In this document: piece after piece, positions 28,509-43,399 of the stretch
Layout of the letters: every line of letters starts with the position of its first letter
How positions within the stretch are numbered: position 1 is the first letter of the stretch
NCBI GenBank assembly: GCA_905234735.1
Contig: CAJOJA010000015.1
Coordinates: 1 to 64,000 of the forward strand
DNA from: an uncultured Bacteroidaceae bacterium
GTDB lineage: Bacteria; Bacteroidota; Bacteroidia; Bacteroidales; Bacteroidaceae
Direction: 5' to 3'
Length of the DNA: 64,000 nt
Notes under the pieces: model-generated
What the model was told of the DNA's origin: nothing
Databases searched by the model: none
What the model saw: the letters and a program-made list of their open reading frames with translations, nothing else
Translations under genes and position numbers: made by a program

Positions 28509-28553
28509 AGATTTAATTTTTTAGTTATTGGATGTTGTGAATATAATCGAGTA

Positions 28554-28659: not shown

Positions 28660-28745
28660 GCGATGTACGGACGTTCACCGACGACGGATGTCCGTTCGCC
28701 GTCGATGGATGTCCGTTCGCCGTCGATGGCTGCAGTTCCCGTTGT
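28660..28745. repeat. GC-rich intergenic repeat, copy 2, with two perfect 21-bp units
   Basis: A 21-bp unit starting GGATGTCCGTTCGCC occurs twice without mismatch (28686-28706 and 28707-28727), preceded by a degenerate third unit and followed by GGCTGCAG. The reverse complement matches the element at 311-412. Apart from this and the promoters, the 359-bp gap 28509-28867 holds nothing I can name. Confidence 0.75.
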
Positions 28746-28818
28746 GAGGATCCCGTAAAATCTTTACCTCTATTGGAAGATTTTCGGAAGACTTTAAGGT
28801 GGATTGCAAAAATTTGTG

Positions 28819-28826
28819 TAATTTTG
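28819..28826 (+). promoter_or_regulatory. -7 box TAATTTTG
   Basis: Lies 41 bp upstream of the Panacea-domain gene and would drive the two-gene operon. Confidence 0.45.
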
Positions 28827-28867
28827 TCCAGTATTATGGACATAGCAAATAGTAGAAAGGGCTCAAC

Positions 28868-29413
28868 ATGACGAGGCAACCCGTATTCAAGAAAGATAAG
28901 GCTGTCAATGCCATCCTCTATGTTGCCAGCAAATTGGAATGCAGCGACATACACAAAATCTGCAAGATACTCTATTTTGCAGACCAGAAGTCGATGTCAG
29001 AGTGTGGCCGCAGCATTACTGGTGACACCTATATCGCCATGACATACGGGCCTGTTCCTTCGTATATCGAGGACATCTTCAAGGCAGTCAGACACCAGAG
29101 CTATTTCTCACAGTATGCAAAGGAGTTCGAGGGCGTGTTCTCGTTTCAGAACGACTACATTCTGAAAGCAGGGCGGGAACCTGACATGCAGCACCTTTCC
29201 AAGAGCGACGTAGAATGCCTTGACTATGCCATAGCGAAGTGCAAGGATCTCGATTTTGGACAGCTTACGCTGCTATCGCATGGTTATGCTTGGAGCAGCA
29301 CTGCCAAAGACCGTCCCATCTCCGTGGATGACATCTTGAAGGAGGCTGGCGACCGCGACGAGTATATCGACTTCGTCAATGAGATGATTACTTTGGAGAG
29401 AGCTACGGTATGA
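28868..29413 (+). CDS. Panacea-domain (DUF4065/SocA-like) putative antitoxin
   Basis: A 181-residue protein of the Panacea/DUF4065 family, whose members act as antitoxins for many unrelated toxins and include the proteolysis adaptor SocA. Family features are AVNAILYVASKLECSDIHKICKILYFADQKSMSECGRSITGDTYIAMTYGPVPSYIEDIF in the N-terminal half, including the conserved YGPVPS. The C-terminal half ends with helices (PISVDDILKEAGDRDEYIDFVNEM). It overlaps the next gene by 4 bp (ATGA), which indicates coupled translation. The upstream gap carries a foreign-looking repeat. I infer a two-gene toxin-antitoxin unit. Confidence 0.85.
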   Translation: MTRQPVFKKDKAVNAILYVASKLECSDIHKICKILYFADQKSMSECGRSITGDTYIAMTYGPVPSYIEDIFKAVRHQSYFSQYAKEFEGVFSFQNDYILKAGREPDMQHLSKSDVECLDYAIAKCKDLDFGQLTLLSHGYAWSSTAKDRPISVDDILKEAGDRDEYIDFVNEMITLERATV

Positions 29414-29835
29414 TGGAGTTACCCGCAGGCCTCATCGAGCACACCATACGCCGTGGTACCATCATCCACTCTTACGGCTTCACGGATATAGACCACGGCA
29501 AATTCTTTGTGGTGGTTGGTTTCAACGGCGAGAGTTTAGTTGGTTTCTTCTTCATCAACTCTGCCATCAACCGGATGATATTCGGAAAGCAACGCCTGTT
29601 GGACATGCAGTACCCAATGAAACAGGCTGACTATCCTTTCTTGAGATATGATTCTTTCCTGTGCGCCACCAACATAATGACCATAGAGAAGAGCGCCCTT
29701 GCTACAGACATTGCTGATGGTACTGCAAGCGTTGTTGGTGAAATGCAGCCAGTCCATCTCTCTGAACTCCTTTCCGCTGCCCGCGAGTCCGATTTGTTCA
29801 CAGACTATGAGAAAGCCACATTCCTAAGCGACTAA
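29410..29835 (+). CDS. Hypothetical protein, candidate MazF/PemK-like toxin partner of the Panacea protein
   Basis: A 141-residue protein of no family I know firmly. The order of features resembles MazF/PemK-fold endoribonucleases: an early strand RRGTIIHSYGFTDIDHGKFFVVVG, then GFFFINSAINRMI, and late DSFLCATNIMTIEKSALA, which parallels the DSxxxxxQIxTIDKxxL strand-helix of MazF. Catalytic Arg and Thr/Ser positions cannot be assigned with confidence. The 4-bp overlap with a Panacea antitoxin supports a toxin role. The alternative is an accessory protein without toxicity. Confidence 0.6.
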   Translation: MMELPAGLIEHTIRRGTIIHSYGFTDIDHGKFFVVVGFNGESLVGFFFINSAINRMIFGKQRLLDMQYPMKQADYPFLRYDSFLCATNIMTIEKSALATDIADGTASVVGEMQPVHLSELLSAARESDLFTDYEKATFLSD

Positions 29836-29902
29836 GCCAGTTAATTTCTGCCTTCCCTTTCATTTTTTTGCCATTACGTGCGTAGTTTCCCGAATATTTT
29901 TG

Positions 29903-29910
29903 TACATTTG
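29903..29910 (+). promoter_or_regulatory. -7 box TACATTTG ahead of structured non-coding DNA
   Basis: TACATTTG follows a T-rich stretch (GAATATTTTTG). No ORF starts nearby. The next hairpin begins one base later, so a transcript would start inside it, around 29917. Confidence 0.4.
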
Positions 29911-29916
29911 TGGCCG

Positions 29917-30004
29917 TATCTGTCCGTCAGAGGCCATTCTGAGCGAAGATTGCCAGTGGGCAGGACACTACATATTAAAAGGCGTTACTGACGCTTTGTT
30001 TTTG
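29917..30004 (+). ncRNA. Candidate small RNA with its own terminator-like hairpin
   Basis: From the expected start to 30004 there is no ORF. GCGT/ACGC with flanking AAA/TTT pairs (29978-29997) is followed by GTTTTTGG, like an intrinsic terminator. A TGGCC/GGCCA stem (29911-29936) overlaps the promoter edge. No known RNA family was recognised. Confidence 0.35.
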
Positions 30005-30046
30005 GTCATTCGAAATTAGCACTTTCCATTGAGAACAAAGACAAAT

Positions 30047-30234
30047 GCAGGGGTGACTGCCACGGGGTGTAGCGTATACTCTCCGTAGTGTGCGCGAGGA
30101 ACGGGTTTCCTCATCGCACACTTTACGGTGTATAGCATACTCCCTGCGTGGATGTTTCTCTGTCTGTTTTTTCTCAAGGGCCGTGCTAAGCCTCGGATGA
30201 CAAACAGGCAGATGTAAACATCCATGCTTTTTTT
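30047..30234 (+). other. Two large adjacent hairpins followed by a U-run (unknown structured RNA or leader)
   Basis: Hairpin 1: closing GCAGGG (30047) with CCCTGC (to 30147), inner GTATACT/AGCATAC with one mismatch, CCGT/ACGG, AGTGTGCG/CGCACACT (perfect) and GAGGAA/TTCCTC around a CGGGT loop. Hairpin 2: TGGATGTTT (from 30149) with AAACATCCA (to 30224), inner CTGTCTGTTT with AAACAGGCAG, then TGC and TTTTTTT. It lies 47 bp before the first gene of the exported-protein run. It could be a leader with terminator, an sRNA or a decayed mobile element; it matches no riboswitch I know. Confidence 0.6.
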
Positions 30235-30280
30235 GTGTGTAGATAAAGCAGAACGATTCACAAAACAAAAACATACAACT

Positions 30281-31285
30281 ATGAAAAAGATTTTTTTCCT
30301 TACCCTCCTTGCCCTGTTCACCTTTATGGGCAAGACTTATGCACAGAATCACTTGGTTGCGACCCTCGACCATGAGGGGACTGTGTCTGTGTTTACTGGC
30401 AAAGATGCCTTTATTAATGCACATGAAGCAGCTATTGATGGTGATGTGATTACATTGTCAAGTGGAGAATTTAATGCCACTGAAATCACCAAAGCAATAT
30501 CGTTGTACGGAGCAGGTGTACTCCCTTATGAAAATGCAACACACCTAATTACTAGAGATTCATTGAAGATAGCAATACCTCTTGACTCAACTAAAAAATT
30601 GATGGTGGAAGGAATTCGCTTTCCCTTTACGACTACTTTCTCTTTAAATTATGCCCTATTTAAGAAATGTACATTCGAAAATAATTTAAATTATCGTGGA
30701 GGTGAATATGGTGCAGAATTCATACATTGCAGGTTTGATTATAATTTGTATAACATAGCAGGCCATGCAATTCTTATCAACTGCATCGTTCATGGTTTAT
30801 ATAATTACTACAAAGATTCAACTTCCTATGATTGCTACAATTGTTTCATTTGGCCAGGCTATAAAGGTTATCCTACAAATGCTCATCAGTTATTCCGTTC
30901 TACTTTTACAAATTGTATTCTATATAGCTATAATACTATTTATGAATTATCCAGTGATAATTCACTTATTTCTTGTCTTATCCCTACTGGCTCTATGGAT
31001 AGATATATTACCATCGAAAAAAACTCATTAATGTACTACAATAATTCCGATAGTATTTTTAGTACGTATAAAACTGATAATGGTGGATCTTTTGGTAGAA
31101 CAGAATCCTTTCAACTTACAAATAACGCAAAGAAATCTTTTCTTGGCAACGATGGCACCGAAGTGGGAATATATGGGGGTGCCATGCCCTACAATCCTAC
31201 TCCTTCGGTGCCAAGAATTAAGAGTTTCCGTATGGATGCAAAGCCTTCAGAAGGAATCCTAAAAGCAGATGTTGAAGTCGAATAA
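30281..31285 (+). CDS. Secreted parallel beta-helix-like protein
   Basis: A 334-residue exported protein. The signal peptide is MKKIFFLTLLALFTFMGKTYA. After a short domain (DGDVITLSSGEFNATEITKAISLYGAG, reminiscent of the start of pectate-lyase-like solenoids) come repeated short strands with Asn/Cys stacks (LFKKCTFENN, FIHCRFDYNL, LINCIVHGL, FTNCILYS, LISCLIPTG), as expected for a right-handed beta-helix. The end GIYGGAMPYNPTPSVPRIKSFRMDAKPSEGILKADVEVE is a common ending of such Bacteroidetes proteins. Codon use is visibly more A/T-rich than in the neighbours. I start at the ATG 30281 because the signal peptide begins there. It is first of a six-gene run. Confidence 0.75.
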   Translation: MKKIFFLTLLALFTFMGKTYAQNHLVATLDHEGTVSVFTGKDAFINAHEAAIDGDVITLSSGEFNATEITKAISLYGAGVLPYENATHLITRDSLKIAIPLDSTKKLMVEGIRFPFTTTFSLNYALFKKCTFENNLNYRGGEYGAEFIHCRFDYNLYNIAGHAILINCIVHGLYNYYKDSTSYDCYNCFIWPGYKGYPTNAHQLFRSTFTNCILYSYNTIYELSSDNSLISCLIPTGSMDRYITIEKNSLMYYNNSDSIFSTYKTDNGGSFGRTESFQLTNNAKKSFLGNDGTEVGIYGGAMPYNPTPSVPRIKSFRMDAKPSEGILKADVEVE

Positions 31286-31295
31286 GCGATTGAGC

Positions 31296-33173
31296 ATGAT
31301 GCGCAAGTTTTCATTATTCGTATTCTTCCTCTTTGCACTTCAAGCCGCAAGAGGACAGACCGATTACAACTATCGTTATTGGATAAATGACGATAAAGCA
31401 ACAGTGCGTGTGGGCACATTACCCGAAGACGGAAAGATAAGCCTTCCGGTGAATGGTCTCACGGGCTGGCTGAACTACCTACACTTCCAAGTCTGCGACA
31501 ACACGGGAAAGTGGAGCCCGGCGGTCACACGGCATTTCATGCTGGTGGAGGATTCCATCGACGGTTTCTCTGAGGGAGCCAAGTACCGCTATTGGCTGAA
31601 CGACGATGCAGGGAGCGTGGTCACTGGAGATTTGACCTCAAAGGTGATGCCCCTAAGCCTACCTGTCAATAACCTCACGGGCTGGCTGAACTACCTACAT
31701 TTCCAAGTCTGCGACAACACGGAAAAGTGGAGCCCGGCGGTCACACGGCATTTCATGCTAGTGGAGGATTCCATCGACGGTTTCTCTGAGGGAGCCAAGT
31801 ACCGTTATTGGCTGAACGACGATGCAGGGAGCGTGGTCACTGGAGATTTGACCTCAAAGGTGATGCCCCTAAGCCTACCTGTCAATAACCTCACGGACTG
31901 GCTGAACTACCTACACTTCCAAGTCTGCGACAACACGGGAAAGTGGAGCCCGGCGGTCACACGCATCTTTGCCATCGTCCCGGATTTTTCTGACCGCTTC
32001 ACGGATTCTGCAAAATTCTGCTATTGGATTGACGACCAAAAAGCCAATGTTGTTACGGGAACAAACTATGGCGGGCTGATGGAACTGAATCTTCCTATCG
32101 ACACCCTTGCAGCCACTGAACATACCCTGTACTTACAAGTTCAAGACAAATTTGGCATGTGGAGTCAAGTGGCCTCTGCCACATTTACGCTCACTACGAG
32201 CGCCCTTACCATTATGACAACGGGTAATGGAACCGTAACGTACAACAATGATGAGTTCCGCGATGACGTGAAAGACTTCGAAACCGTCGTGGGGAATACG
32301 GTGGAGTTAAGCTTGAAGCCTGATGAAGGATATGTTGTGGGCAGCGTAATCGTGAATGGAACAGAGGATGTAACAGACCGTGTAGAGGACAACAAAGTGA
32401 GCGTCTATGCCACAGAGGGAATGTCCATAGCAGTCACTTTCGAACTGACAGACTTCACGAAACTTGGCGACGTAAACAACGACAATCGCATATCTGTGGC
32501 AGACCTTTCCCTCTCGGTGGATTACTTGGTGGGAGGTCATCCGTCGCCCTTCGTGCTCCGTCAGGCTGATGCGAACAATGACGGAGAAGTGAATGTCGGC
32601 GATGTTGCCCGCATTGTCGATTTGATTACGGGAGCCGTGGAGCGCGGCCGTCATGCACCTGCCCTGCATCGCGAAGCAGAAGATGACGGTAACAATGTAC
32701 TGACAGGGCAAATCAAGGGCTCCCTATTGTCCCTGGATTTGGCAAACTCTACGGAATATACTTGCTTCCAGTTGTCCTTGACGCTACCGGAAGGAGCAGA
32801 TGTCAAAGACTTGCGCCTCACTCGTGGCAACAATCACGTTTTGACCAGCGGCGTATGCGGTGACGGACGAATGAAGGTCGTGGTATATTCGGGCGACAAC
32901 AGCCCGTTGGAGGGTTCTGACGGGCAACTGTTGCAAGTGCAGACGACAAGACCGATTGAAGGCGAAGTGTTGGTAGATGACATCGTTTTCGTCACAAAAC
33001 GGGGGCATACCCAAAAGTTCAGTCCCATTCTTGCTAATGGCACCACAGGAATTTCGGAGAGGTCGCAAATCGCTACGCGGTCGTCTGCGTTTGACCTCAA
33101 TGGACGTATTGTGCCGGCAAAGCCACGAAGAGGCATCTATATTATCGGTGGAAAGAAAATCATATTCAAATGA
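31296..33173 (+). CDS. Secreted protein with near-identical tandem repeats, dockerin-like pair and sorting tail
   Basis: A 625-residue exported protein. A signal peptide ends near AARGQ. Next come four beta-rich units of about 72 residues with the core YRYWINDDKA...GWLNYLHFQVCDNTGKWSPAV; units 2 and 3 are almost identical in DNA. A bacterial-repeat-like domain (about 300-390) follows. Then two dockerin-like calcium loops appear (GDVNNDNRISVADLSLSVDYL and ADANNDGEVNVGDVARIVDLI), then a cohesin-like beta-domain (GSLLSLDLANSTEYTCFQLSLTLPEG), and the tail FDLNGRIVPAKPRRGIYIIGGKKIIFK. I use the first ATG of MMRK. The next gene overlaps by 4 bp. Confidence 0.75.
   Translation: MMRKFSLFVFFLFALQAARGQTDYNYRYWINDDKATVRVGTLPEDGKISLPVNGLTGWLNYLHFQVCDNTGKWSPAVTRHFMLVEDSIDGFSEGAKYRYWLNDDAGSVVTGDLTSKVMPLSLPVNNLTGWLNYLHFQVCDNTEKWSPAVTRHFMLVEDSIDGFSEGAKYRYWLNDDAGSVVTGDLTSKVMPLSLPVNNLTDWLNYLHFQVCDNTGKWSPAVTRIFAIVPDFSDRFTDSAKFCYWIDDQKANVVTGTNYGGLMELNLPIDTLAATEHTLYLQVQDKFGMWSQVASATFTLTTSALTIMTTGNGTVTYNNDEFRDDVKDFETVVGNTVELSLKPDEGYVVGSVIVNGTEDVTDRVEDNKVSVYATEGMSIAVTFELTDFTKLGDVNNDNRISVADLSLSVDYLVGGHPSPFVLRQADANNDGEVNVGDVARIVDLITGAVERGRHAPALHREAEDDGNNVLTGQIKGSLLSLDLANSTEYTCFQLSLTLPEGADVKDLRLTRGNNHVLTSGVCGDGRMKVVVYSGDNSPLEGSDGQLLQVQTTRPIEGEVLVDDIVFVTKRGHTQKFSPILANGTTGISERSQIATRSSAFDLNGRIVPAKPRRGIYIIGGKKIIFK
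31458..31963 (+). repeat. 216-bp in-frame tandem repeat
   Basis: Copies begin at 31458, 31674 and 31890 (the third partial), each with CTCACGG then CTGGCTGAACTACCTACA. The period is exactly 216 bp (72 codons) and differences are few, so the array expanded recently or is kept uniform by recombination. Confidence 0.9.
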
Positions 33174-36100
33174 AGCGCATACTCATCATCTTAAACATCA
33201 TACTTGCCATAGTAAACGAAGTCCGGGCCGACAGCCTTACCTCCACTGCCGTTCATTTTGGGCATGAAGATGCAGCAGCACTCACGTTGTCGCTCCAGAA
33301 CGAAAATGAGCAGTGGAACTCTTATCAGTTCGTGCTCACATTGCCCGAGGGCATGGAATGGAAAAAGAGTGCCAAGGGGGAGTTCCTCTACGAACTCTCC
33401 TCGCGCCACGATGCCAGCTACGCCCTGACGGTTCACCAGCAGACCCCGACCCGTTACTCCGTGGTATGCTATTCTTCCAATGGCACTCCGCTAACAGGGA
33501 CTGAAGGCGAACTCATCTCCTTGACCATAGAGGCAAACGACTCGCTACGTGGGAAAAAACTGACAGCCCAGGTAAGCGAGATTCTATTCTCAACTAAGGC
33601 GGGGGAAGAAACGGCACTTGATGACCTCGCCATAGAAATACATGTGACGGCACCGCTGACGGTGACGGCAAACAGTTACACCCGCGAATATGGCGACCCC
33701 AACCCGACGTTTGATTATTCAACCAGCGGACCAGAAATAATTGGGATTCCCATGATATATTGTGAAGCCAATTCCACAACTCCCGTCGGTACATATCCTA
33801 TCGTCATCAGCAAAGGTAGTGTGGAAAACGAGAATGACTATTATGTCAACGGCACATTGACCATCATCAAGGCCCCGTTGACTATAACCGTCAGTTCTGC
33901 TACGAAACAACAGGGCGATCCAATGCCAGAGTTCACCATCACATACAGCGGATTCAAGAACGGCGAGACGGATGCTGTGCTGACAACATTGCCAACCGTC
34001 CAATGTGAGGCGACTGCAGGAAGCCCCAGTGGCACGTACCCTATAACACTAAGCGGGGCAGAAGCACAGAACTATGAAATCAAGTATGTCCATGCTTCTC
34101 TAACCGTGACAGAAGCTCCTCTTGTGATTGTGACGGCCAATAGCTACAGCCGCGAGTATGGCGACGAGAATCCATCATTTGGTTTCACGTCCGAAGGTGC
34201 TCCATTAGTGGGTGCGCCTACGATTACGTGTGAGGCCACGCCAACCTCCGTCGTTGGCACCTATCCGATAGTCATCAGCAAAGGCAGTGTTGCCAATTTC
34301 AACGATCGCTATGTCAACGGCACACTGACGGTGACAAAGGCTCCGCTGACCATTACCGTTAATGCTGTCAGCAAGCAGCAAGGCGACCCAATGCCAGAGT
34401 TCACGCTGACCTATGAGGGATTCAAAAACGGTGAGTCAAGTGCGGTGCTGACGACGCAGCCCACCATCACATGTGAAGCCACAGCCGATAGTCCCACTGG
34501 CACATATCCCATCAAGGTAAGCAATGCCGAGGCGCAGAACTATGAAATCACGTATGTAGACGGTACGCTCACCATATATAATGGCATCGTTTTCACTGCC
34601 AACAGCTACAGTCGAGAGTATGGTGAAGAAAACCCTACATTCAATTATATTTGGGAGGGAGCAGAACCGATAGGTACGCCTAACATCACTTGTACTGCTA
34701 CTTCATCATCCCCTGTAGGAACCTACCCGATTGTAATATCACGAGGTAGTGTCACCAATGTTGGCGATAGCTATGTAAATGGTACACTAACCATCATCCC
34801 TGCACCATTGACGGCAAAGGGTAAGGATGTGAGCCGCTATGAAGGAGAAGAGAATCCAACGCTGGAAGTGGAGTATAGCGGGTGGAAGTTGGATGATGAC
34901 GAGAGTGTACTTTCAGAGAAGGCTGTGGCTGTGACAGATGCTGACAGGAGCAGTCCGCCCGGAGATTATGCGATAAAGGTGACAGGCGGAGCCGCAGAGA
35001 ACTACGAGATAAAATATGAATCTGGCACATTGACTGTGCTGCCACTGCCGTCGTATCTTATTCCTCATGACGGAATGACATTCTATATTCCGGATGCCCA
35101 GGTCCATGAAGTGGTATTGACAACTAGTGAGGAAAAAGCACATGTGGAGATTCCCTCCTCTGTGCAGTTCGGAGAACAGACATGGACAGTGACATCGATT
35201 GCTGACAGTGTGTTTGCAGGGCATACGACTCTGATGACAGTAGTGATACCTGCCACTATCAAGGTCGTGGGCAAGGATGTTTTTGACGGATGCCGACATC
35301 TTGCGGCCATTGTGTGGCACTCGTCTTTGAAAATGACCAGTGATATGATGGGAAAATTCAGCAATCCTAACCTGTTGCTCTATGTTGCAGATAGGGAAAG
35401 CGCTCTGGATGGCGTGAAGAACCTCATAGACCTGAACGCCCTAACAGCAGAGAACATCGTGCTGACCGATGAGGGCAACACCAATGACTTCTATTGTCCA
35501 ATAGAGTTTACGGCAACCGATATCAGGTACAGCCATGAATATCTGCAGGAGACCCCTGCGGGTAGCAACCAGGGATGGGATGCGCTGACATTGCCCTTCG
35601 ACGTGTCAACTATAGAACATGAGGAGAAAGGCGAGATTCATCCCTTTGCCACATTGACGGACGATCAAATTCTCAAAGACGGAATGAAGCCTTTCTGGCT
35701 ATACGAGTACTCAGCCGAGGGATTCAAGGCGGCAGGCAGCATCGTGGCCAATACCCCGTATATTATATCCATGCCCAACGAGGATGCTCTGTGGGAGGGT
35801 TTTATCCTCAAGGGTACGGTGACGTTCCGTGCTGCGAACACTACCGTACGTGCCACAGCCGATGCTATCGAAGTGAAGGGCAGCGACCATACCTTCCATC
35901 CCAACTTCAGCAATCACGCTGGCGAAGGGGTCTATCTGTTGAACGTCGGTGAGCAGTGGAACGGTCGTGCCGAGGGTAGCGTGTTTGTGCAGGCACTGCG
36001 TGTGGCCCACCCCTTCGAGGCCTGCTTCACCAGCACTTCGGGTGTGAAGGCGTTCGGCATACAGACGGCAATGACCGATGGCATGGAGGAGATAATGAAG

Positions 36101-36205
36101 AATGAAGAGAATTCTCAACCCTTCTTCGACTTGACAGGCCGCTGCGTGGCGAAGCCGATGAAGGGCTTGTACATTGTGGGCGGAAAGAAATACATCAAAC
36201 GATAA
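33170..36205 (+). CDS. Large secreted MBG-repeat protein with BspA-like LRR and sorting tail
   Basis: A 1011-residue exported protein. A short signal peptide ends near VRADS, followed by a cohesin-like domain (about 25-160: LQNENEQWNSYQFVLTLPEGMEW). Six MBG-type repeats of about 75-80 residues follow (about 160-625), each with TANSYSREYGDENPTF or KQQGDPMPEFTL, then GTYPI and YVNGTLTI/YEIKYVDGTLT. A BspA-type leucine-rich segment (IADSVFAGHTTLMTVVIPATIKVVGKDVFDGC) comes next, then a C-terminal beta region and the tail FFDLTGRCVAKPMKGLYIVGGKKYIKR. MBG and BspA repeats are usual in adhesins. It is translationally coupled to the preceding gene (ATGA) and the next starts 2 bp after its stop. Confidence 0.83.
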   Translation: MKRILIILNIILAIVNEVRADSLTSTAVHFGHEDAAALTLSLQNENEQWNSYQFVLTLPEGMEWKKSAKGEFLYELSSRHDASYALTVHQQTPTRYSVVCYSSNGTPLTGTEGELISLTIEANDSLRGKKLTAQVSEILFSTKAGEETALDDLAIEIHVTAPLTVTANSYTREYGDPNPTFDYSTSGPEIIGIPMIYCEANSTTPVGTYPIVISKGSVENENDYYVNGTLTIIKAPLTITVSSATKQQGDPMPEFTITYSGFKNGETDAVLTTLPTVQCEATAGSPSGTYPITLSGAEAQNYEIKYVHASLTVTEAPLVIVTANSYSREYGDENPSFGFTSEGAPLVGAPTITCEATPTSVVGTYPIVISKGSVANFNDRYVNGTLTVTKAPLTITVNAVSKQQGDPMPEFTLTYEGFKNGESSAVLTTQPTITCEATADSPTGTYPIKVSNAEAQNYEITYVDGTLTIYNGIVFTANSYSREYGEENPTFNYIWEGAEPIGTPNITCTATSSSPVGTYPIVISRGSVTNVGDSYVNGTLTIIPAPLTAKGKDVSRYEGEENPTLEVEYSGWKLDDDESVLSEKAVAVTDADRSSPPGDYAIKVTGGAAENYEIKYESGTLTVLPLPSYLIPHDGMTFYIPDAQVHEVVLTTSEEKAHVEIPSSVQFGEQTWTVTSIADSVFAGHTTLMTVVIPATIKVVGKDVFDGCRHLAAIVWHSSLKMTSDMMGKFSNPNLLLYVADRESALDGVKNLIDLNALTAENIVLTDEGNTNDFYCPIEFTATDIRYSHEYLQETPAGSNQGWDALTLPFDVSTIEHEEKGEIHPFATLTDDQILKDGMKPFWLYEYSAEGFKAAGSIVANTPYIISMPNEDALWEGFILKGTVTFRAANTTVRATADAIEVKGSDHTFHPNFSNHAGEGVYLLNVGEQWNGRAEGSVFVQALRVAHPFEACFTSTSGVKAFGIQTAMTDGMEEIMKNEENSQPFFDLTGRCVAKPMKGLYIVGGKKYIKR

Positions 36206-36207
36206 GC

Positions 36208-37794
36208 ATGATGAAGGAAAAATCAAGGATAAGGGGCATATCGGCGGTGCTGACATTGCTGCTGCTACTGGTGGCGAGTTCTGCTGTGGCCCAACTGCGA
36301 GTGGACAAGTTCGAGGAACTCGTCAATGACCAAACGGCAAATAACTCCACAACCCGAGTCGAGGACGGCAATGGAAAATACTGTGCTCTGATAAAAGTGA
36401 AAGCACCACCCGTGGGGTTGGACAAATTTTACTTCAATGCCGGTGCCTTCGGTGTGAAGAAAAAAGCCGTCAATGGCAACGAGATTTGGGTCTATATCCC
36501 TCGTGAGGTGGAGAGCATCGCCATCAGCCATGAGCGGTTCACGGGAACGGAACTGGAATTTCCTGAACGGCTTCGTGACGGCAGCACGTACGAGTTGCTG
36601 CTGAACGTGGGCGGCGGACGGTTTGTGAACATCTTCACCCAAGGGGCAGAAGGAGCGCGTGTCACGGTTGATGACATTGAAGCGGGCTTGTCCCCTGTCT
36701 ACAACTACTACCTGCCCTTCGGCAAGCATCAATTGTCTGCCGTGAAAGATAAGTTTGAAGGACATTCGGAGGTGATGGTGGTAGAGGGCGAAGGCCTACA
36801 ATCCACCTACGTGCAACTTGCCGACCAGTCCTCGCACTTTGGCGATGTCCTCATCGAGGTGGACGACCCTAATGCGGAGATTTATTTCCAGGGCAAGCGA
36901 CGGGCTGCAGGCAGTTGGCGAACGGAACTGAGAGAGGGACACTACGAAGTGGTGACCCGGAAAAAGGACTGCCAAGATGCCGTCACGGTCTTCGATGTGG
37001 TGGCCGGTCAGGAGAACCGGGTGAGTGCCAAGCGTCCGGAGCCCTTCACGGGTAGTCTTCAACTGTATGTGCGCCCCCGTGGCACGAAGATTGTCTATGA
37101 CAACGATCAGACCTTTGACCCGTCGGAGGTGCGTGTGCTGCCTGTCGGGTTGCATCAGTTCCAGTTTAAGCATAGCGATTATGTGACGCAGGAACGCGAA
37201 ATCAGCGTGCGCAGAGATTCATTGACGGCTGATACCATAGTGCTGGAAGGAATCAACTACCTGAAGAGCAAGTGGGCATTTTACTTCGGTGTCGGTTATA
37301 CCTTGAGTAGTCTGGGCGGACTGACGGCTTATCTGGGTGGCGTGTACAGGCACGTGGATGTACAACTCAGTTACACCTTCGGTCTGAACAAAAGCAAGAA
37401 CGTGTATATGTACCAAAAAGCTGCAGAGGGGCACGAACTCCTGAGCGGAAATACCTACAAGATGAACGCAATGGCAGTGCGCGTGGGTTACCAATTCCGT
37501 CTGATTCCCCGTTTGGGCATCACGCCGCAGATCGGTTATCAGCAGCAGACGTTGACAGCACAAGTATTGAACGGTTATACTGGTAAATATTCCGATGGGG
37601 CCAAAGCTAGCAATTTAACGATAGGAGCCAAGATTCTGGTTGTACCCATTCATCGGGTCTATCTGTTCGTGAATCCCGAGTATGCTGTGAATATTAGCAA
37701 AGAGGAGTCTTTCAGCATGGCTGCAAAAGCTGCTGACTTCAGTGTCGGGGGATTCTCTGTAAGTGCAGGCGTGCTCGTGAATATCGGAAAGTGA
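36208..37794 (+). CDS. PEGA-domain protein with C-terminal outer-membrane barrel
   Basis: A 528-residue exported protein. A signal peptide ends at SSAVAQ. Several PEGA-like beta-domains follow (SSHFGDVLIEVDDPNAEIYFQGKRRAAGSWRTELREGHYEVVTRKKDCQD and GSLQLYVRPRGTKIVYDNDQ...LPVGLHQFQFKHSDYVTQEREISV). From about 345 on, alternating hydrophobic/aromatic strands (WAFYFGVGYTLSSLGGLTAYLGGVYRHVDVQLSYTFGL to FSVSAGVLVNIGK) suggest a small outer-membrane beta-barrel. PEGA domains commonly sit in envelope assemblies. By position it is the likely membrane anchor or assembly platform of the six-gene locus. Function is not known. Confidence 0.75.
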   Translation: MMKEKSRIRGISAVLTLLLLLVASSAVAQLRVDKFEELVNDQTANNSTTRVEDGNGKYCALIKVKAPPVGLDKFYFNAGAFGVKKKAVNGNEIWVYIPREVESIAISHERFTGTELEFPERLRDGSTYELLLNVGGGRFVNIFTQGAEGARVTVDDIEAGLSPVYNYYLPFGKHQLSAVKDKFEGHSEVMVVEGEGLQSTYVQLADQSSHFGDVLIEVDDPNAEIYFQGKRRAAGSWRTELREGHYEVVTRKKDCQDAVTVFDVVAGQENRVSAKRPEPFTGSLQLYVRPRGTKIVYDNDQTFDPSEVRVLPVGLHQFQFKHSDYVTQEREISVRRDSLTADTIVLEGINYLKSKWAFYFGVGYTLSSLGGLTAYLGGVYRHVDVQLSYTFGLNKSKNVYMYQKAAEGHELLSGNTYKMNAMAVRVGYQFRLIPRLGITPQIGYQQQTLTAQVLNGYTGKYSDGAKASNLTIGAKILVVPIHRVYLFVNPEYAVNISKEESFSMAAKAADFSVGGFSVSAGVLVNIGK

Positions 37795-37816
37795 TTTTAT
37801 TAGTTCAATATAGATT

Positions 37817-39133
37817 ATGAGAACAGACAATACATACATAATTGGGTGGTTGGCGGCAGTGCTTCTCCTACTGACAGCCTGCAACGGCGACAACCAGCAG
37901 CCCGATGTGATGAGTGCTGACCTGCTGGCGGTAGGCAGTGCCATTGAGGTCAGTGGAGGTGCATCAAAAGATACCATCCAAGTGGAGGCCAATTGCAACT
38001 GGACGGTTACGACCCAGAACAGTTGGATTCATATCATCAATCCGAAAGACGGTCATGGAAGTGGTACCCAGAACCTGGTGCTTGACATTGATGCCAGTCC
38101 GCTAATTACGTCGCAAACCGGCAAACTGATTATCCGTAGCACGGATGGTATTGAGCGCATTGTCACCGTGACGCAGCGTGCTGGGGATGCAATAATTGAC
38201 ATGGACACCACAGAAGTTTTTTTCAAGTTTTCCGGTGGGGAAAAAACAATCAATATTAAAAGTAATGTACAGTGGACCGCCACCTGCGACGAGAGTTGGT
38301 TGAAAGTGAGCATAGACTCCGAAAAATGGGATTCTGAGGTGACGGCTAATGGTGACCCCAAACCATTTGACCAAAAACTATACTTGCATGCGGATGCCAA
38401 CAATAGTGTGGAACAACTGGAAGGTACTATTACTTTTCGTGCCCAGGATGGAAACAGAACATCCAAAGTGAGGGTAACAGTGGGAAGTCGTGAACCCAAT
38501 ATGAGAATTCTACCCCCAAATGACACCATTCAGATACCTGCCTTGGGTAATAGAGTGGATACATTTTATGTGAACTGTAACTATGATTGGGAGGCCACTG
38601 CAACAATGGCAGACGGTGGAGAATGGTTTCATTTTACAGAAGGCAATCCTTCCTATCACTATCGTGGTCAGGCCAACAATAACTATTTTTCTCTAAGTTG
38701 GTTTTTAGATCCCAATCCCTCACTGCTAAAACGTACTGCCAAAGTCACATTTAGCATTGGCAATAAGGACTATGCAACGCGTATAGTCATACAAGATGTA
38801 GGCACACTCCCTAATATCGTGAATGTGAAATGCAGAGACATTACACATACTTCTGCCACTATTTCTTTCCAACAGAGTTACGACACCTTTGAAATTAAGG
38901 AATGTGGTGTGCGCTACAGTACGGATGAATCTAATGTACAAAATGGTAAAGATGAAAAGGGTACTGTGCAGGATAAGCCCGAAATAAACTTGAAAGACTT
39001 ATCTCCAAACACTGTATATTACGTCTGTGCCTATGCCACCAATGCCGTGGGCACCCGATATAGCAGTGTGGTATCCTTCCGGACACGTAGTGTGCCGGGA
39101 CGGGATGATCACGGGGATCCCGATATAGAATAG
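37817..39133 (+). CDS. BACON-domain lipoprotein with C-terminal fibronectin-type domain
   Basis: A 438-residue lipoprotein. The lipobox is LLLTAC, so lipid attachment is at Cys24 or close by. Two to three BACON-type domains follow (IEVSGGASKDTIQVEANCNWTVTTQNSWIHI; VFFKFSGGEKTINIKSNVQWTATCDESWLKV; a third weaker one with TFYVNCNYDWEATATM). A fibronectin type III-like domain closes the protein (ITHTSATISFQQSYDTFEIKECGVRYSTDE to YYVCAYATNAVGTRYSSVVSFRT). BACON domains are found in surface glycan- or mucin-binding proteins. The central part is A/T-rich. The gap to the previous gene is 22 bp. There is no catalytic domain, so a binding or structural role is likely. Confidence 0.82.
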   Translation: MRTDNTYIIGWLAAVLLLLTACNGDNQQPDVMSADLLAVGSAIEVSGGASKDTIQVEANCNWTVTTQNSWIHIINPKDGHGSGTQNLVLDIDASPLITSQTGKLIIRSTDGIERIVTVTQRAGDAIIDMDTTEVFFKFSGGEKTINIKSNVQWTATCDESWLKVSIDSEKWDSEVTANGDPKPFDQKLYLHADANNSVEQLEGTITFRAQDGNRTSKVRVTVGSREPNMRILPPNDTIQIPALGNRVDTFYVNCNYDWEATATMADGGEWFHFTEGNPSYHYRGQANNNYFSLSWFLDPNPSLLKRTAKVTFSIGNKDYATRIVIQDVGTLPNIVNVKCRDITHTSATISFQQSYDTFEIKECGVRYSTDESNVQNGKDEKGTVQDKPEINLKDLSPNTVYYVCAYATNAVGTRYSSVVSFRTRSVPGRDDHGDPDIE

Positions 39134-39164
39134 CAATGTATAAATAATGTATATCCAAGGAACA

Positions 39165-41087
39165 ATGAAGAGGCTATTTACGACAAGCTTTCTTGTAGTG
39201 CTCATGCTGTCGGTGATGCCGACGAATGCGCAGAACCTGAAAGAGAACAGGCAAAAGGCAGAAGTAATTCAGAGGGACGACTCCTACTATTCGGCTATTG
39301 GTACGGGCAAGGACGAGTACGAGGCAGGGAAAATAGCTCGAGTTGAACTGATGAACCAGATATCCTCTACGATTGAAAGCAAATTTGACTGGAACCTGAA
39401 GGAACTGAATCAGGGCGGAAACCTCACCACCCACAGTGTGATGAACAATATCATGAAGACCTATTCGGGTGGAGAGTTGAAAGATACAAAGCCTTTGGTG
39501 CTGGAGCGCAAGGGGGGCGAGGTTACCGTGATGTGTTATGTTGCCAAATCCACAGTAGAGGGGGTCTTCCGTAAGCGTGTGGAACGGGTGCTTCAATATG
39601 TGATTGATGGTTTGGGTGCCGAAGAGCAGGGCAAGATAGACGTGGCACTGAAAAGTTTCACCTGGGCTCTGGGCTTGCTGCGAACTGTCCAATATCCCAG
39701 CGACCTCACCTATGCCGTTGAGGGACCGACGGCCGGAAACAAGATTCTCGTAAATTGGCTGCCCATGCACATCAATAACATCCTCAAGAACCTGAAGACG
39801 CAAATCTCTGACATAGATGAACAGAAGGTTCAACTATGGGTAACCTATCACGGGAAGCCTGTCACCAGCATTGACCTGCAATATGACGGAGATGACAATC
39901 GCAGTCACTCGATTGGAATCGGGGACGGAAAAGGGTGTTACGATCTCCAAAGAGGCCAATCGGCGGACAATATTGTGATGAAATATAAGTATGCCTACGA
40001 AAATGAAATGGCCAATGACAACGAATTGAGAATGGTGTCGGAGTTCTTTAAGGTGCCATCCTTCGAGAGTGCAGAGTTCACCGTTTACAAGGGTGGCAAA
40101 CGGGAGATGAAGGCTGCAGCCGAGCAGTTCCAGACCTCGGCGCAGGAGGCTGCCACACCCCACACGGGCTTCCTCAAGCGCAACCAGGCCAAAGACTACA
40201 TTGGTACTGTGATGAGGATTGCAGAGGCAGTACAGCGCAAGGAGTATGAGAGTGTGAGGGAACTGTTCACGCCAGAAGGTTATGAGATATATGAAAAGTT
40301 GCTACACTACGGGCAGGCCCGCATCCTGACTATTCCCGAACTGCACTGCTACCCCTACAGCGACAAAGAAAAGAAAGTCATCTGCCGCAGCATACCTATG
40401 CAGTTCACCTATCCAGGCACCCAGCGCTCGTTCACGGAAGATGTCTATTTTACCTTTAACGCTCAGGACATGATAGAATGTGTTGCCTTTGGGCTGGACA
40501 AGGCTACACGGAATGAAATAAACACGGACGAGCATCTGGCAGCATGGGGAGAGGAGAAGTGTGAGTTGCTGAACATCTTCCTGGAAGACTACAAGACGGC
40601 CTGGGCACTGAAACGACTGGATTACATCGAGGGTATCTTTGCCGACAATGCCCGTATCATCACGGGCCACGTGCTCAAACCGGCTGTGCTTAGCAACCGC
40701 ACACAGGGTGATGGGGTTAAGCACCTATACAGTCATCCGCTGATAAAATATACCGAGCAGAACAAGCAGGAATATATGAAAAACCTGGAGAAGTGTTTCA
40801 AAAGCAATGAGTTCATTAACATTCGCTTCACCGACTGCATGATTAAGAAACTGGCAGGGGAGCACTTCTACGTCAATATCCGGCAGGATTATTACTCCAA
40901 TACCTATAGTGACACGGGATTCCTCTGTCTGATGGTGGATGTGTCCAATCCGCTGACGCCACTCATCCAGTACCGTACCTGGCAACCGGAGCGCGATCCC
41001 AACATTAATAATAAGTGGAAGGAGGAAGAGCGCGCCAGTGGTGATGGCCGCTTCTGGGGTGTCATTACCGGAAGTTCTTTCAAATAG
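39165..41087 (+). CDS. Exported LPP20-like protein of unknown function
   Basis: A 640-residue protein. A signal peptide ends at PTNAQN. The first 130 residues (YYSAIGTGKDEYEAGKIARVELMNQISSTIESKF) resemble the LPP20 lipoprotein domain, but there is no lipobox Cys. The remainder (about 190-640) contains no domain I recognise; GTVMRIAEAVQRKEYESVRELFTPEGYEIYEKLL and a later WALKRLDYIEGIFADNARIITG look like two NTF2/SnoaL-like units, which is only a suggestion. I use the ATG 39165 where the signal peptide begins. It is last in the six-gene run and convergent with xerD, 6 bp apart. Confidence 0.65.
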   Translation: MKRLFTTSFLVVLMLSVMPTNAQNLKENRQKAEVIQRDDSYYSAIGTGKDEYEAGKIARVELMNQISSTIESKFDWNLKELNQGGNLTTHSVMNNIMKTYSGGELKDTKPLVLERKGGEVTVMCYVAKSTVEGVFRKRVERVLQYVIDGLGAEEQGKIDVALKSFTWALGLLRTVQYPSDLTYAVEGPTAGNKILVNWLPMHINNILKNLKTQISDIDEQKVQLWVTYHGKPVTSIDLQYDGDDNRSHSIGIGDGKGCYDLQRGQSADNIVMKYKYAYENEMANDNELRMVSEFFKVPSFESAEFTVYKGGKREMKAAAEQFQTSAQEAATPHTGFLKRNQAKDYIGTVMRIAEAVQRKEYESVRELFTPEGYEIYEKLLHYGQARILTIPELHCYPYSDKEKKVICRSIPMQFTYPGTQRSFTEDVYFTFNAQDMIECVAFGLDKATRNEINTDEHLAAWGEEKCELLNIFLEDYKTAWALKRLDYIEGIFADNARIITGHVLKPAVLSNRTQGDGVKHLYSHPLIKYTEQNKQEYMKNLEKCFKSNEFINIRFTDCMIKKLAGEHFYVNIRQDYYSNTYSDTGFLCLMVDVSNPLTPLIQYRTWQPERDPNINNKWKEEERASGDGRFWGVITGSSFK

Positions 41088-41093
41088 ATTCCG

Positions 41094-42029
41094 TTAGGTT
41101 CGTTTTTTCGTGTTGCGGGGATGGCAGGTCAGGATCTCCTCGCGCAGATGCTGACGGTCGAGATGCAAGTAGATTTCGGTGGTGGAGATGGACTCGTGGC
41201 CCAACATGGCCTGGACGCCGCGCAGGTTGGCTCCGCGTTCCAGCAGGTGGGTGGCAAAGGAGTGGCGGAAGGTGTGGGGCGAGATTTCCTTCTGTATGCC
41301 GGCCAGTTGGGCATACTGCTTGATGTTGTGGAAGACGGTGATGCGGCTTAGGTGGCGTCCGCGCTGAACGGAGACGAAGACGTAGTCCTCCTCGCCGGGC
41401 TTGATGTTTACCCGCTGGCGTACGACGAACCAGCGGCGCAGTTCTTCGATGGCCGTCTCGGAGATGGGGATGAGGCGGTCCTTGTTGCCCTTGCCGCGAA
41501 CGTGGATGTAGCCCTCCTCGAGGAAGAGGTCGGAGAACGTGAGGTTGCACAGTTCCGACACGCGCAGGCCGCAGCTGTAGAGGGCCTCGACGATGGCGTG
41601 GTCGCGTATGCCTTCGTCCTTAGACTGGTCGATGGATTGCAGAATCTGGTCGATTTCATCGAGGCTTAGCACCTGTGGCAGGTACAGCCCGCGGCTGGGC
41701 GAAGCCAGCAGTTCGGTGGGGTCTTGTCGGATTTCCTTCTCGACGAAAAGGAAATGGTAGAACGAGCGTACGCCTGCCAGGACGCGTGCAATGGTCTTGT
41801 GCGAAATGCCCCTGTCGAGCAGCGAGGCGGCAAAACGGTCGAGCTGTTCCAGCGTCACTTCGCGGAAGTCGATGCCCTCGCCGGTGTAGTAGTCGATGAG
41901 TTTTTGCAGGTCGCGCATGTAGGCGTCCAGCGTGTTTGCCGAAAAGGCCTTCTCCAGTCGCAGATACTGACTATAGCGACGCAGTATGGGGACGGGAATC
42001 ACGTTGTTATTTGTTATTTTTGCCTTCAT
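41094..42029 (-). CDS. xerD: Tyrosine recombinase XerD
   Basis: A 311-residue site-specific recombinase that with XerC normally resolves chromosome dimers at dif. The N-terminal SAM-like core-binding domain is about 12-105 (FSANTLDAYMRDLQKLIDYY). Catalytic residues are visible: Arg in SCGLRVSELCNL, Lys in GKGNKDRLIP, HTFRHSFATHLLERG with H-x2-R and His, and the Tyr nucleophile in STTEIYLHLD. Length and collinearity fit chromosomal XerD rather than an integrase, so the adjacent accessory genes need not be its mobile cargo. The minus-strand -7 box at 42037 sits inside a palindromic repeat. Confidence 0.92.
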   Translation of the reverse strand: MKAKITNNNVIPVPILRRYSQYLRLEKAFSANTLDAYMRDLQKLIDYYTGEGIDFREVTLEQLDRFAASLLDRGISHKTIARVLAGVRSFYHFLFVEKEIRQDPTELLASPSRGLYLPQVLSLDEIDQILQSIDQSKDEGIRDHAIVEALYSCGLRVSELCNLTFSDLFLEEGYIHVRGKGNKDRLIPISETAIEELRRWFVVRQRVNIKPGEEDYVFVSVQRGRHLSRITVFHNIKQYAQLAGIQKEISPHTFRHSFATHLLERGANLRGVQAMLGHESISTTEIYLHLDRQHLREEILTCHPRNTKKRT

Positions 42030-42036
42030 CGTCCTG

Positions 42037-42044
42037 CAAAGATA
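42037..42044 (-). promoter_or_regulatory. -7 box (TATCTTTG, minus strand) of xerD
   Basis: CAAAGATA on the plus strand, 7 bp before the xerD start, implying an almost leaderless message if used. Confidence 0.45.
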
Positions 42045-42134
42045 CGATTAAGCGAGGGATAAAACAAATTTATTTGATTTTATCCGAGCGTGAGTATCTT
42101 AGAACGCAGTTCAGAGTACGATTAAGCGAGGGAT
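42041..42134. repeat. Palindrome plus 18-bp direct repeat upstream of xerD
   Basis: TACGATTAAGCGAGGGAT occurs at 42043-42060 and again at 42117-42134. Between them GGATAAAACAAAT pairs with ATTTGATTTTATCC (one extra base), and outer GATAC pairs with GTATC, giving an imperfect palindrome over 42041-42098. Confidence 0.75.
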
Positions 42135-42239
42135 TTCTTGCTCCGTTTTACTGTGCAAGCGTAGGCCAAAGGCCGTCCGATTAGGAACAATGAATTGAAG
42201 AAAAGTCACTACCTATTTTGCGTTACACAAAAAAAGTAG

Positions 42240-42247
42240 TAACTTTG
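42240..42247 (+). promoter_or_regulatory. -7 box TAACTTTG
   Basis: Lies 27 bp upstream of the AAA ATPase ATG at 42275. Confidence 0.55.
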
Positions 42248-42274
42248 TAGCGCATATTACTAAATGTAACGACT

Positions 42275-43399
42275 ATGGAAAACCCTTTTGCTTTGATTCC
42301 TTATATCTCAAAATCAACATTTTGCGATAGAGAAAAGGAACTGCAGTTAATATGTGACTACATTCAGAATGGTTCAAATATCAGCCTGATTTCCCCTCGA
42401 AGATATGGGAAAACAGGACTAATCTATCGTGTTTTTGATGAAATAAATGACTTGAAACTGCCTCTGCGAACCTTCTATGTCGACATTTATGCTACACAAA
42501 ACCTTGAGGACTTCATTGAGAAATTGACCGAGGGGCTGGCGAATGTACTGAATAAGGGTTCTGTCCTAAAAAATTTGTTTAAAAGTATCAGCAATATCCG
42601 TCCCGTGCTGACCTACGATACTATCACACACAAGGCGAAACTCTCGTTTACCTTTGCGAATGAACAGGAAAAAAAGGCTAGTATTCAGAGTATTTTCAAT
42701 TTTCTGGAAGCACAAGAGACGCGCGTTCTGCTGGCTATTGACGAGTTTCAGCAGATACGTGAATACGATGGGGTGAACATGGAGGCTATGCTTCGTTCGT
42801 ATATCCAACCCCTGAAAAACGTGCAATTCATTTTCTGCGGCAGCAAAAAGCATATTATGGCAGAGATGTTCACAGATGCGCGTAGTCCTTTTTACGAAAG
42901 TACGAGACATATCTATCTTGATAAGATTGACAGAGAGACATACGCAAGTTTTATTGAAGAGAAATTCACAGAGAGCGGTAAGACCATCACCCGTGAAGCT
43001 GTCGACTACATTCTCGACTGGACACGCATCCACACGTTCTACACCCAGACGCTATGCAACACCGTATTCATGCAATGCCGTAGGAAGGCGACCCTGCTGG
43101 ACGTTTATCGGGCCATCGACCTCATCCTGACAACAAACACGGAAACATTCATGCAATGGCGCAGCATGCTGACACGTGCCCAGTGGAACTTCCTGCAAGC
43201 CGTGGCCAAAGAGGGCATTGTGGAACAACCGACGGCAGGTGAGTTCATTTCCAAATACAAGATTGGTACTCCCTCGAACTCCAAACGACTGCTTGACGCC
43301 CTGGTGGAGAAGGAACTTATTCTGCCTGCTATTGGTCCGCAATCTACGACCTATACTTTATACAATGTGTTCCTCTCTCGCTGGCTGGAAAGAATATGA
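42275..43399 (+). CDS. AAA family ATP-binding protein (archaeal-type ATPase_2-like)
   Basis: A 374-residue P-loop ATPase of the group often listed as archaeal ATPase or AAA_35-like, multi-copy in Bacteroidetes. Walker A is ISPRRYGKTGL (RRYGKT in place of the usual GxxGxGKT), Walker B is VLLAIDEFQQI, and the sensor-like IFCGSKKHIM follows. The C-terminal part (about 275-374: RAQWNFLQAVAKEGIVEQPTAGEFISKYKIGTPSNSKRLLDALVEKELI) looks like a winged helix. Biological role is unknown, and members are often mobile or defence-associated. The first half is A/T-rich relative to neighbours. It is a monocistron with its own promoter and terminator. Confidence 0.82.
   Translation: MENPFALIPYISKSTFCDREKELQLICDYIQNGSNISLISPRRYGKTGLIYRVFDEINDLKLPLRTFYVDIYATQNLEDFIEKLTEGLANVLNKGSVLKNLFKSISNIRPVLTYDTITHKAKLSFTFANEQEKKASIQSIFNFLEAQETRVLLAIDEFQQIREYDGVNMEAMLRSYIQPLKNVQFIFCGSKKHIMAEMFTDARSPFYESTRHIYLDKIDRETYASFIEEKFTESGKTITREAVDYILDWTRIHTFYTQTLCNTVFMQCRRKATLLDVYRAIDLILTTNTETFMQWRSMLTRAQWNFLQAVAKEGIVEQPTAGEFISKYKIGTPSNSKRLLDALVEKELILPAIGPQSTTYTLYNVFLSRWLERI

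Follow-up and report, generated by a model that had tools for sequence, protein, structure and literature searches.

We asked if six consecutive plus-strand genes of a Bacteroidaceae contig, g1 to g6, encode the parts of a single surface assembly. The genes span 30281-41087 of the window, which is the whole 64,000-nt stretch of DNA that was analyzed, and were found where the original prediction had placed them; with the starts used there, the intergenic gaps are 10, -4, 2, 22 and 31 bp. Read by eye, a hydrophobic leader begins each of the six proteins, in agreement with their predicted export, and a scan against Pfam and NCBIfam gave no enzyme family at cut-off in any of the six, as had also been claimed. 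PADLOC models for anti-phage defense matched none of the proteins, and the reading of the locus as a defense system was dropped on that result. No Rfam match was obtained in 26000-43000. A Bacteroidetes-type promoter motif occurred 9 times in the window against 0.61 expected and not at all in 29835-41087, and therefore no promoter was assigned to the locus. Counts of sigma-70-like sites (18 vs 13.7 in shuffles) and of terminator-like sites (2 vs 9.9 in shuffles) say little.

Recurrence of g4 and g6 homologs was used as a test of the proposed association, which was found within the same genome, across genomes and, once, with all six genes in order. In its own genome, g4 occurs at 9 places and g6 at 8, with 6 of the 8 g6 copies beside a g4; a profile search placed g4, g5 and g6 together at only 3 loci (C15, C16 and C17), and at locus C35 no g4 was called within the 19 kb examined. 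Among other Bacteroidales, 65 of 78 g6 loci, drawn from the best 80 of 340 with two left out for having no called g6 ORF (L092 and L108), have a g4, g5 or g3-type gene no more than 10 kb away and in the same orientation. These loci are mostly MAG contigs that are often cut, and one labelled Lachnospiraceae (L104) may be mis-binned; where both flanks reach at least 9 kb, 28 of 31 have such a neighbor and three (L042, L049 and L106) do not. Two loci (L120 and L121) repeat L073 from the same contig, and the pair, gap and tail counts given here are without duplicates. Adjacent g4-g5 pairs numbered 44 (one duplicated locus removed; median gap 25 bp) and adjacent g3-g6 pairs 30 (median gap 8.5 bp). 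Locus L046, from the culturable strain Prevotella sp. ne3005, shows the order g4-g5-g5-g3-g6. In an order-wide census of 149 genomes, in which at most 8 candidates for g6 and 10 for g4 were scored per genome at cut-offs of 1e-40 and 1e-15, respectively, g6 was present in 14 genomes and g4 in 18. With the genome of the window excluded (148 genomes), g4 was found in 11 of the 13 genomes that have g6 and in 6 of the 135 that lack it (Fisher p 7e-11). Two of the 11 co-occurring genomes (G054 and G058) have the nearby g4 in the reverse orientation to g6, and stop codons interrupt the g6 matches in G054 and G150. Among relatives, again excluding the genome itself, g4 was present in 3 of 4 g6-positive and 0 of 26 g6-negative genomes. 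MBG, PEGA, BACON and the other domains of this locus are common ones, as would suit six unrelated exported genes lying side by side by chance, yet the recurrence counts contradict that explanation and we find it hardly credible.

Alternatively, g4, g5 and g6 could be an envelope maintenance or stress module, such as a tether between the outer membrane and the cell wall, with the large cargo genes hitch-hiking in variable islands. Hitch-hiking is at odds with the tight spacing between the two groups, as the gap is at most 100 bp in 27 of 30 g3-g6 pairs and in 15 of 15 g5-g3 pairs, and with a buffalo-rumen genome (G167) that keeps all six genes in order at 34-62% identity. We regard this explanation as possible but unlikely. 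In the same rumen genome the g1-g2-g3 triple is duplicated, with a g1 homolog first in both triples. Mirror-tree correlations, computed without the duplicate on pairs filtered by length, were r 0.58 for g6-g4 (55 pairs), 0.67 for g4-g5 (41 pairs) and 0.59 for g6-g5 (42 pairs), each with 0 of 1000 permutations; they reflect species history in part, and the values are rough because two runs gave 0.47 and then 0.59 for g6-g5. The recurrence of these six genes for exported proteins suggests an undescribed surface-display system, and our searches of open papers turned up no account of a PEGA/LPP20/BACON locus from such bacteria.

The last three genes, g4, g5 and g6, may form an outer-membrane and periplasmic platform. 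The g4 gene (36211..37794, or from the alternative start at 36208) encodes a signal peptide, N-terminal beta domains that include the expected PEGA domain (Pfam, 37.7 bits), and an OmpA-like barrel at the C-terminus (residues 355-527; 37273..37791). The barrel had been proposed from sequence; the structure model (pLDDT 90) agrees, with nine longer strands listed from residue 355 onward, whereas the Pfam barrel match is below cut-off (20 vs 28.7). When residues 398-404 are read as an outer-loop hairpin, the model has an eight-strand outer-membrane barrel. The chains best aligned to it are OprF, OmpW and OmpA, and because the top-ranked chains are small barrels of the OmpA/OprF/OmpX type, a pore for export or assembly was judged unlikely. 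Compared with outer-membrane proteins of the OmpA/OprF type, g4 carries its PEGA-containing non-barrel part at the N-terminus and has no C-terminal peptidoglycan-binding OmpA domain, for which Pfam gave no match and the barrel itself forms the C-terminal end. With this arrangement the PEGA part should be periplasmic, and the barrel would serve as an outer-membrane anchor. Further down the Foldseek ranking for g4 come large porins, BamA and a leucine-rich-repeat protein, which overlap it poorly.

The g5 gene (37817..39133) encodes the predicted lipoprotein with BACON and fn3 domains, with two BACON_2 stretches, a BACON match of 50.5 bits, an fn3 domain and the lipobox LLTAC. Within the g5 family, at least two acidic residues follow the lipid cysteine in 37 of 50 members, compared with 25 of 109 other lipobox-like ORFs; the g5 of the window has one acidic residue among the five past the cysteine. 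The protein would be located at the outer membrane and may be exposed to the outside; with its BACON domains it is plausibly a surface lipoprotein, a likeness to Sus-like surface lipoprotein systems. The Pfam/NCBIfam scan of the six genes gave no SusC or SusD match. The product of g6 (39165..41087) has an LPP20-like N-domain, a helical/beta middle and an NTF2-like C-terminal domain (residues 459-613; 40539..41003). Its earlier description as LPP20-like holds for the family N-domain profile, which matches the solved LPP20 protein 4kzs at 3.1e-4, but not for Pfam LPP20, which scored below cut-off (16.8 vs 25.9). The g6 leader has neither a lipobox nor a cysteine for lipidation, and the sub-cut-off score together with the missing cysteine led us to reject the name LPP20 lipoprotein; the NTF2-like domain is a further difference from those proteins. 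We suggest that a periplasmic g6 could meet g4 and perhaps the cell wall, the latter via its NTF2-like domain. A second, inner NTF2-like domain of g6 was read by eye, and comparison of S212 with the g6 N-domain gave a probability of 24.

The first three genes would encode the cargo. A beta-helix had been assigned to g1 (30281..31285), a 334-residue exported protein without a CTD, and this label found no support, the best PDB sequence match reaching only E 0.91. The protein matches a family profile (cluster 8; 8.6e-30) that is present in 6 loci, and its family lies directly upstream of g3-type genes 6 times. Both predicted features of g2 (31296..33173) were recovered: a tandem repeat with a 216-bp (72-residue) unit, 2.3 copies and 97% matched (31458..31963), and dockerin-like loops that score as a type I dockerin (residues 390-440; 32463..32615; Pfam Dockerin_1, 30.4 bits against a cut-off of 22.9). 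Dockerin_1 is also above cut-off in both g2 homologs of the buffalo-rumen genome. For g3 (33170..36205), the MBG assignment was upheld by six MBG_2 stretches (306 bits), while the BspA-type LRR is weak, with LRR_5 below cut-off (22.1 vs 27.7). Fifteen relatives listed with PF00963 each contributed one domain copy to an HMM that identified cohesin-related domains in g2 (approximately residues 477-575; 32724..33020; E 4.7e-6) and in g3 (residues 37-138; 33278..33583; E 2.8e-15). The g2/g3 cohesin-related set gave an HHalign probability of 99.2, and the four relatives tested for the cohesin link were picked among those already listed with PF00963. The relation of the g2/g3 domains to PF00963 is seen only through relatives, as a direct Pfam scan of the g2 and g3 pieces gave no Cohesin match and PDB searches gave no cohesin match for either protein.

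The g2 and g3 proteins may be joined through pairing of the g2 dockerin with the cohesin-related domain that each of them carries, as with dockerins and cohesins in cellulosomes. Cohesin-related domains were found in few of the other loci, so such pairing cannot be general. The same domains could instead belong to a cellulosome-like scaffold, in which g2 and g3 recruit dockerin-bearing enzymes encoded elsewhere; g2 does carry both domain types, and among the listed members of a relative family with 1143 matches, 13 of 120 have both PF00404 and PF00963. Yet no enzyme domain over cut-off occurs in the locus, and we see little chance that this is the correct reading. Unlike in a cellulosome, the dockerin and cohesin-related domains here are borne by T9SS-type proteins of Bacteroidales. 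This bears on a statement in PMC5831590 that its genome lacks cohesins and dockerins, in line with other Bacteroidetes. Dockerin proteins in Bacteroidaceae are already named by public records.

We conclude that g2 and g3 are probably exported by T9SS, given their T9SS-like tails and the presence of the machinery in the same genome (SprA, 2679 bits; PorV, 424 bits; both over cut-off). Short T9SS signals have been shown in Prevotella intermedia (PMC11969387). Like that short-CTD cargo, g2 and g3 have a leader peptide, here a Sec signal peptide seen by eye, and a tail of about 41 residues with a GI or GM start, FDLxGR, GxYI and a basic end. The g2 tail (GISE..FDLNGR..GIYIIGGKKIIFK; 33048..33170) was assigned by motif comparison with the same paper and the g3 tail (36080..36202) by pattern match; both fit CTD motifs B, D and E under a pattern composed after viewing the tails. 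Pfam Por_Secre_tail had no match in either. A loose tail motif, likewise composed after viewing, was present in 42 of 43 g3-type proteins with an intact 3′ end, which excludes 2 of 45 ORFs cut there, compared with 26 of 933 other ORFs; a stricter pattern was present in 15 of 45 and 15 of 987, respectively. One genome (G015; 73% complete) has g4 and g6 and no SprA match. In contrast to the P. intermedia cargo, g2 and g3 are encoded beside g4-g5-g6, and T9SS export is predicted here. Anchoring of g2 and g3 is probably also by T9SS. The earlier proposal that barrel and lipoprotein assemble the three large proteins thus stands in that the genes recur together, but a barrel pore is unlikely and T9SS would provide export and anchoring instead.

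We tentatively favor, at slightly less than an even chance, a reading of the locus as one copy of a modular, multi-copy envelope cassette of Bacteroidales, in which a platform of g4 (PEGA and OmpA-type barrel), g5 (BACON/fn3 lipoprotein) and g6 (LPP20-like/NTF2 protein) accompanies variable exported cargo, represented by g1, g2 and g3 here and by giant LRR/MBG proteins elsewhere. Signal peptides would take all six proteins across the inner membrane, and the short tails would then route g2 and g3 out via T9SS, a step that we infer strongly. At the surface, the g2 dockerin could form a complex by binding a cohesin-related domain, either the one in g3 or the one in its own protein. Judging from the MBG, LRR and BACON domains, the assembly in the gut probably binds glycans, fiber or other cells. 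The export route of g2 and g3 is well supported, while the platform and the pairing are inferred. If this is a true assembly, it offers a defined gene set for the study of adhesion and fiber binding in gut Bacteroidales.

A different kind of control could come from transglutaminase-like proteases (family C545), which may resemble LapG. On this explanation the adhesins would be regulated as in LapA/LapG, with a CHASE2-controlled protease of neighboring or distant loci cutting the surface proteins and so releasing cells. Four aligned members share the invariant motif DCEDRS...YPGH...CDPT, the Transglut_core match of one member falls short of its cut-off (17.9 vs 23), and C545 is found no more than 10 kb from g6 at 29 of the 78 loci (from the best 80 of 340), with a tree correlation to g6 of r 0.36 over 30 pairs. 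The genome of the window has three C545 matches, on C1 and C26, but no such gene was called either in the window or at the first 10 other loci retrieved from that genome, and we think protease control a rather improbable account of the locus. Returning to the cassette, its fullest form would be an undescribed multi-copy display system of gut Bacteroidales with a g4-g5-g6 platform across outer membrane and periplasm and exchangeable giant T9SS cargo, some of it (g2-g3) assembled through dockerin and cohesin like a cellulosome without enzymes, and possibly controlled from a separate protease/CHASE2 locus; we consider this conceivable and doubtful. The best PDB match of C545, a TATA-binding protein at E 0.01, was taken as chance. 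An association with caspases was also considered and set aside: a secreted LRR caspase is encoded in L118, but whole-protein matches at g6 loci are mostly to its LRR part.

The open reading frame coordinates bear out the original prediction of six consecutive plus-strand genes (g1 to g6, window 30281..41087), separated by gaps of 10, −4, 2, 22 and 31 bp. The domains it had proposed were supported in part: Pfam recovered dockerin in g2, six MBG_2 copies in g3, PEGA in g4, and BACON-type and fn3 domains in g5, whereas LRR in g3, the barrel in g4 and LPP20 in g6 matched below curated cut-offs. Pfam gave no match over cut-off for g1, nor did NCBIfam for any of the six proteins. The repeats of g2 include near-identical 216-bp units (window 31458-31963), and for this reason repeat number may have been changing recently.

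The prediction's main test was recurrence of these genes together in other genomes, and the association held. Searching species genomes with the g6 alignment confirmed 340 sites; the 80 best of these were analyzed, all with Bacteroidales or Bacteroidia titles except one Lachnospiraceae contig, and ruminant-gut MAGs were numerous among them. In the 78 loci from this best 80 with a called g6 ORF, we counted g4 on the same strand within 10 kb in 47, g5 in 39, a large g3-type protein in 42, and the families S212 and C545 (transglutaminase-like) in 41 and 29, respectively. At least one of g4, g5 and g3 lay near g6 in 65 of the 78 loci, and in 28 of the 31 with both flanks at least 9 kb, with neighboring cassette genes closely spaced. 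An order-wide sample of 149 genomes held g6 in 14 and g4 in 18. Leaving out the window's own genome (G000), g4 occurred in 11 of 13 g6-positive versus 6 of 135 g6-negative genomes (Fisher p = 7e-11), and by coordinates all 11 placed at least one g4 match within 10 kb of a g6 match. Two of these genomes (G054 and G058) have g4 near g6 on the opposite strand, and in G054 and G150 stop codons occur within the g6 matches. Among the 31 nearest genomes g6 was present in only five and g4 in four, every one among those five, so the cassette is patchy even inside the genus. At five loci (L042, L044, L047, L049 and L058) g6 adjoins gene clusters 10, 11 and 12, judged by eye to be glycosidase-like, glycosidase-like and sigma-factor-like; g4-g5-g3 is present in the called gene run of L044 and absent from the other four.

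The full order g1-g2-g3-g4-g5-g6 is found on one contig of Bacteroidaceae bacterium RGIG8060, from water-buffalo rumen (the genome behind locus L034), with identities to the window of 38-40% (g1), 46-62% (g2), 34-62% (g3, by piece), 61% (g4), 39% (g5) and 54% (g6). A second g1-g2-g3 set lies immediately upstream of this run, indicating that g1-g2-g3 is able to duplicate separately from g4-g5-g6, and the g2/g3 overlap of −4 is preserved in both copies. Between the two sets is a 314-residue gene (L134 14886-15830; G167 contig C42 22885-23829), which by eye we take to resemble Rpn/PD-(D/E)XK transposase proteins.

G000 (2.95 Mb, 59 contigs, 87% complete) has nine g4 and eight g6 match sites. Ten further sites were fetched, genes were called and families were assigned by profile. 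Contig C16 repeats the window's g3-g4-g5-g6 order, C17 carries g6-g4-g5, C18, C2 and C20 have g4 together with g6, C1 and C41 have g4-g5 at contig ends, C32 has a g3-type gene with a short g4 and g5, C35 has g6 after a g3-type gene for a 3646-residue protein, and C6 has a weak g5 match with g6. Thus g4 adjoins six of eight g6 copies, where a hand estimate of chance gives about 0.5 of 8, the duplicated copies being non-independent; profiles place g4, g5 and g6 together at three loci (C15, C16 and C17). On C20, two small overlapping genes of 101 and 85 residues (L029 10609-11168), possibly an inserted pair, lie between g4 and g6.

Distance trees were compared after removal of one duplicated locus, with 1000 permutations. 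Correlations were 0.58 for g6-g4 (55 pairs), 0.67 for g4-g5 (41), 0.59 for g6-g5 (42) and 0.36 for g6-C545 (30), none equaled by a permutation, and only 0.16 for g6-S212 (41 pairs; 8/1000). An earlier run gave 0.58, 0.68, 0.47, 0.36 and 0.16, respectively, so the g6-g5 value (0.47 versus 0.59) is unstable. These between-genome correlations are inflated by species history; within G000, r was 0.61 for g6-g4 (six loci; 0/720 random permutations) and 0.99 for g4-g5 (five loci; 8/720).

Type IX secretion (T9SS) is well supported as the cargo route. G000 encodes the components SprA (2679 bits) and PorV (424 bits), and SprA is found in 25 of 31 relatives, including four of the five with g6; a SprA search of G015 (73% complete, with g4 and g6) gave no match. 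The last 41 residues of both g2 and g3 form a tail that shares the layout of the short T9SS signals described for Prevotella intermedia (PMC11969387). A loose tail motif occurs in 42 of the 43 g3-type proteins whose ends are intact versus 26 of 933 other ORFs, and in none of the g4, g5 and g6 families nor in g1. Pfam Por_Secre_tail was not found in seven tails scanned, and G000 as a whole has six matches, three over cut-off. Upstream, on the strand opposite g1-g6, the window encodes a 709-residue exported protein (26379-28508, minus) that matches DUF6359, choice-of-anchor J and OB-fold models and ends in a short T9SS-type tail.

There is good evidence, from sequence comparison, that a domain shared by g2 and g3 is related to cohesins; dockerin binding by it is putative. 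Dockerin is retained in g2 homologs (28.9 and 41.6 bits), and the domain following it is homologous to the g3 N-terminus (single-sequence E about 1e-5). A related domain at locus L127 scored 20.3 against Pfam Cohesin, just below the 24.1 cut-off. Relatives of the L127 protein gave 1143 matches; among the 120 listed, 15 carry PF00963 and 13 of these also PF00404. This listed family (P0146-P0265) includes several Bacteroidaceae by name, and some members have BspA-type LRRs. In all four of the 15 PF00963 relatives scanned, Cohesin exceeded its cut-off and overlay a copy of the g2/g3-type domain. A profile built from one domain copy of each of the 15, searched against called ORFs of the window and ten own-genome loci, matched only g3 (2.8e-15) and g2 (4.7e-6; next 0.41), and HHalign gave a probability of 99.2 for the cohesin-related domain comparison. 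PDB searches with the g2/g3 domain returned no cohesins. PMC5831590 describes a rumen genome without cohesins or dockerins, consistent with other Bacteroidetes.

The g4 model (mean pLDDT 90, pTM 0.48) places beta domains N-terminally and a barrel C-terminally, closest to OprF, OmpW and OmpA by structure comparison; we read eight predicted strands, assigning residues 398-404 to a loop hairpin. In barrels of the OprF/OmpA type both ends face the periplasm, and the PEGA part of g4 should therefore be periplasmic. The g6 model (pLDDT 86.5, pTM 0.86) is NTF2-like C-terminally, and its strand order suggests a second such domain at about 345-442. The g5 family is acid-rich after the lipid cysteine, with at least two acids in five residues in 37 of 50 members versus 25 of 109 other lipobox-like ORFs, resembling the surface-export signal described in PMC5080379; the window's own g5 has one such acid.

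Our best reading, with slightly under even confidence, is a modular envelope cassette of T9SS-exported cargo and a g4-g5-g6 platform. We infer this platform role, as well as a possible dockerin-cohesin pairing of g2 with g3. Our confidence is slightly lower because G015 has no SprA match and the g6-g5 correlation is unstable. A search of the open literature found no cassette description combining PEGA with LPP20, BACON or T9SS.

Other g6 loci also hold S212, C545 and CHASE2 proteins. In G000, contigs C1 and C26 carry S212 and C545; C545 occurs in seven of 31 relatives, four of them among the five bearing g6. The CHASE2 protein is on C1, together with a secreted, LRR-bearing caspase and a protein whose DUF4384 match is weak (below cut-off); this second exported-protein locus (L118 2-13749) also comprises S212, two C545 proteins and a beta-propeller. 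Its S212/DUF4384-like/unknown/caspase stretch has identical order in G018 (L128). Within the window, a SocA/Panacea antitoxin-like gene (82 bits) overlaps a 141-residue gene lacking a domain match (28868-29835, plus), a possible toxin-antitoxin pair. The motif TTTG-N(17-23)-TANNTTTG occurs nine times in the window, with 0.61 expected; none of these sites is inside the six-gene locus, and the nearest flank it.
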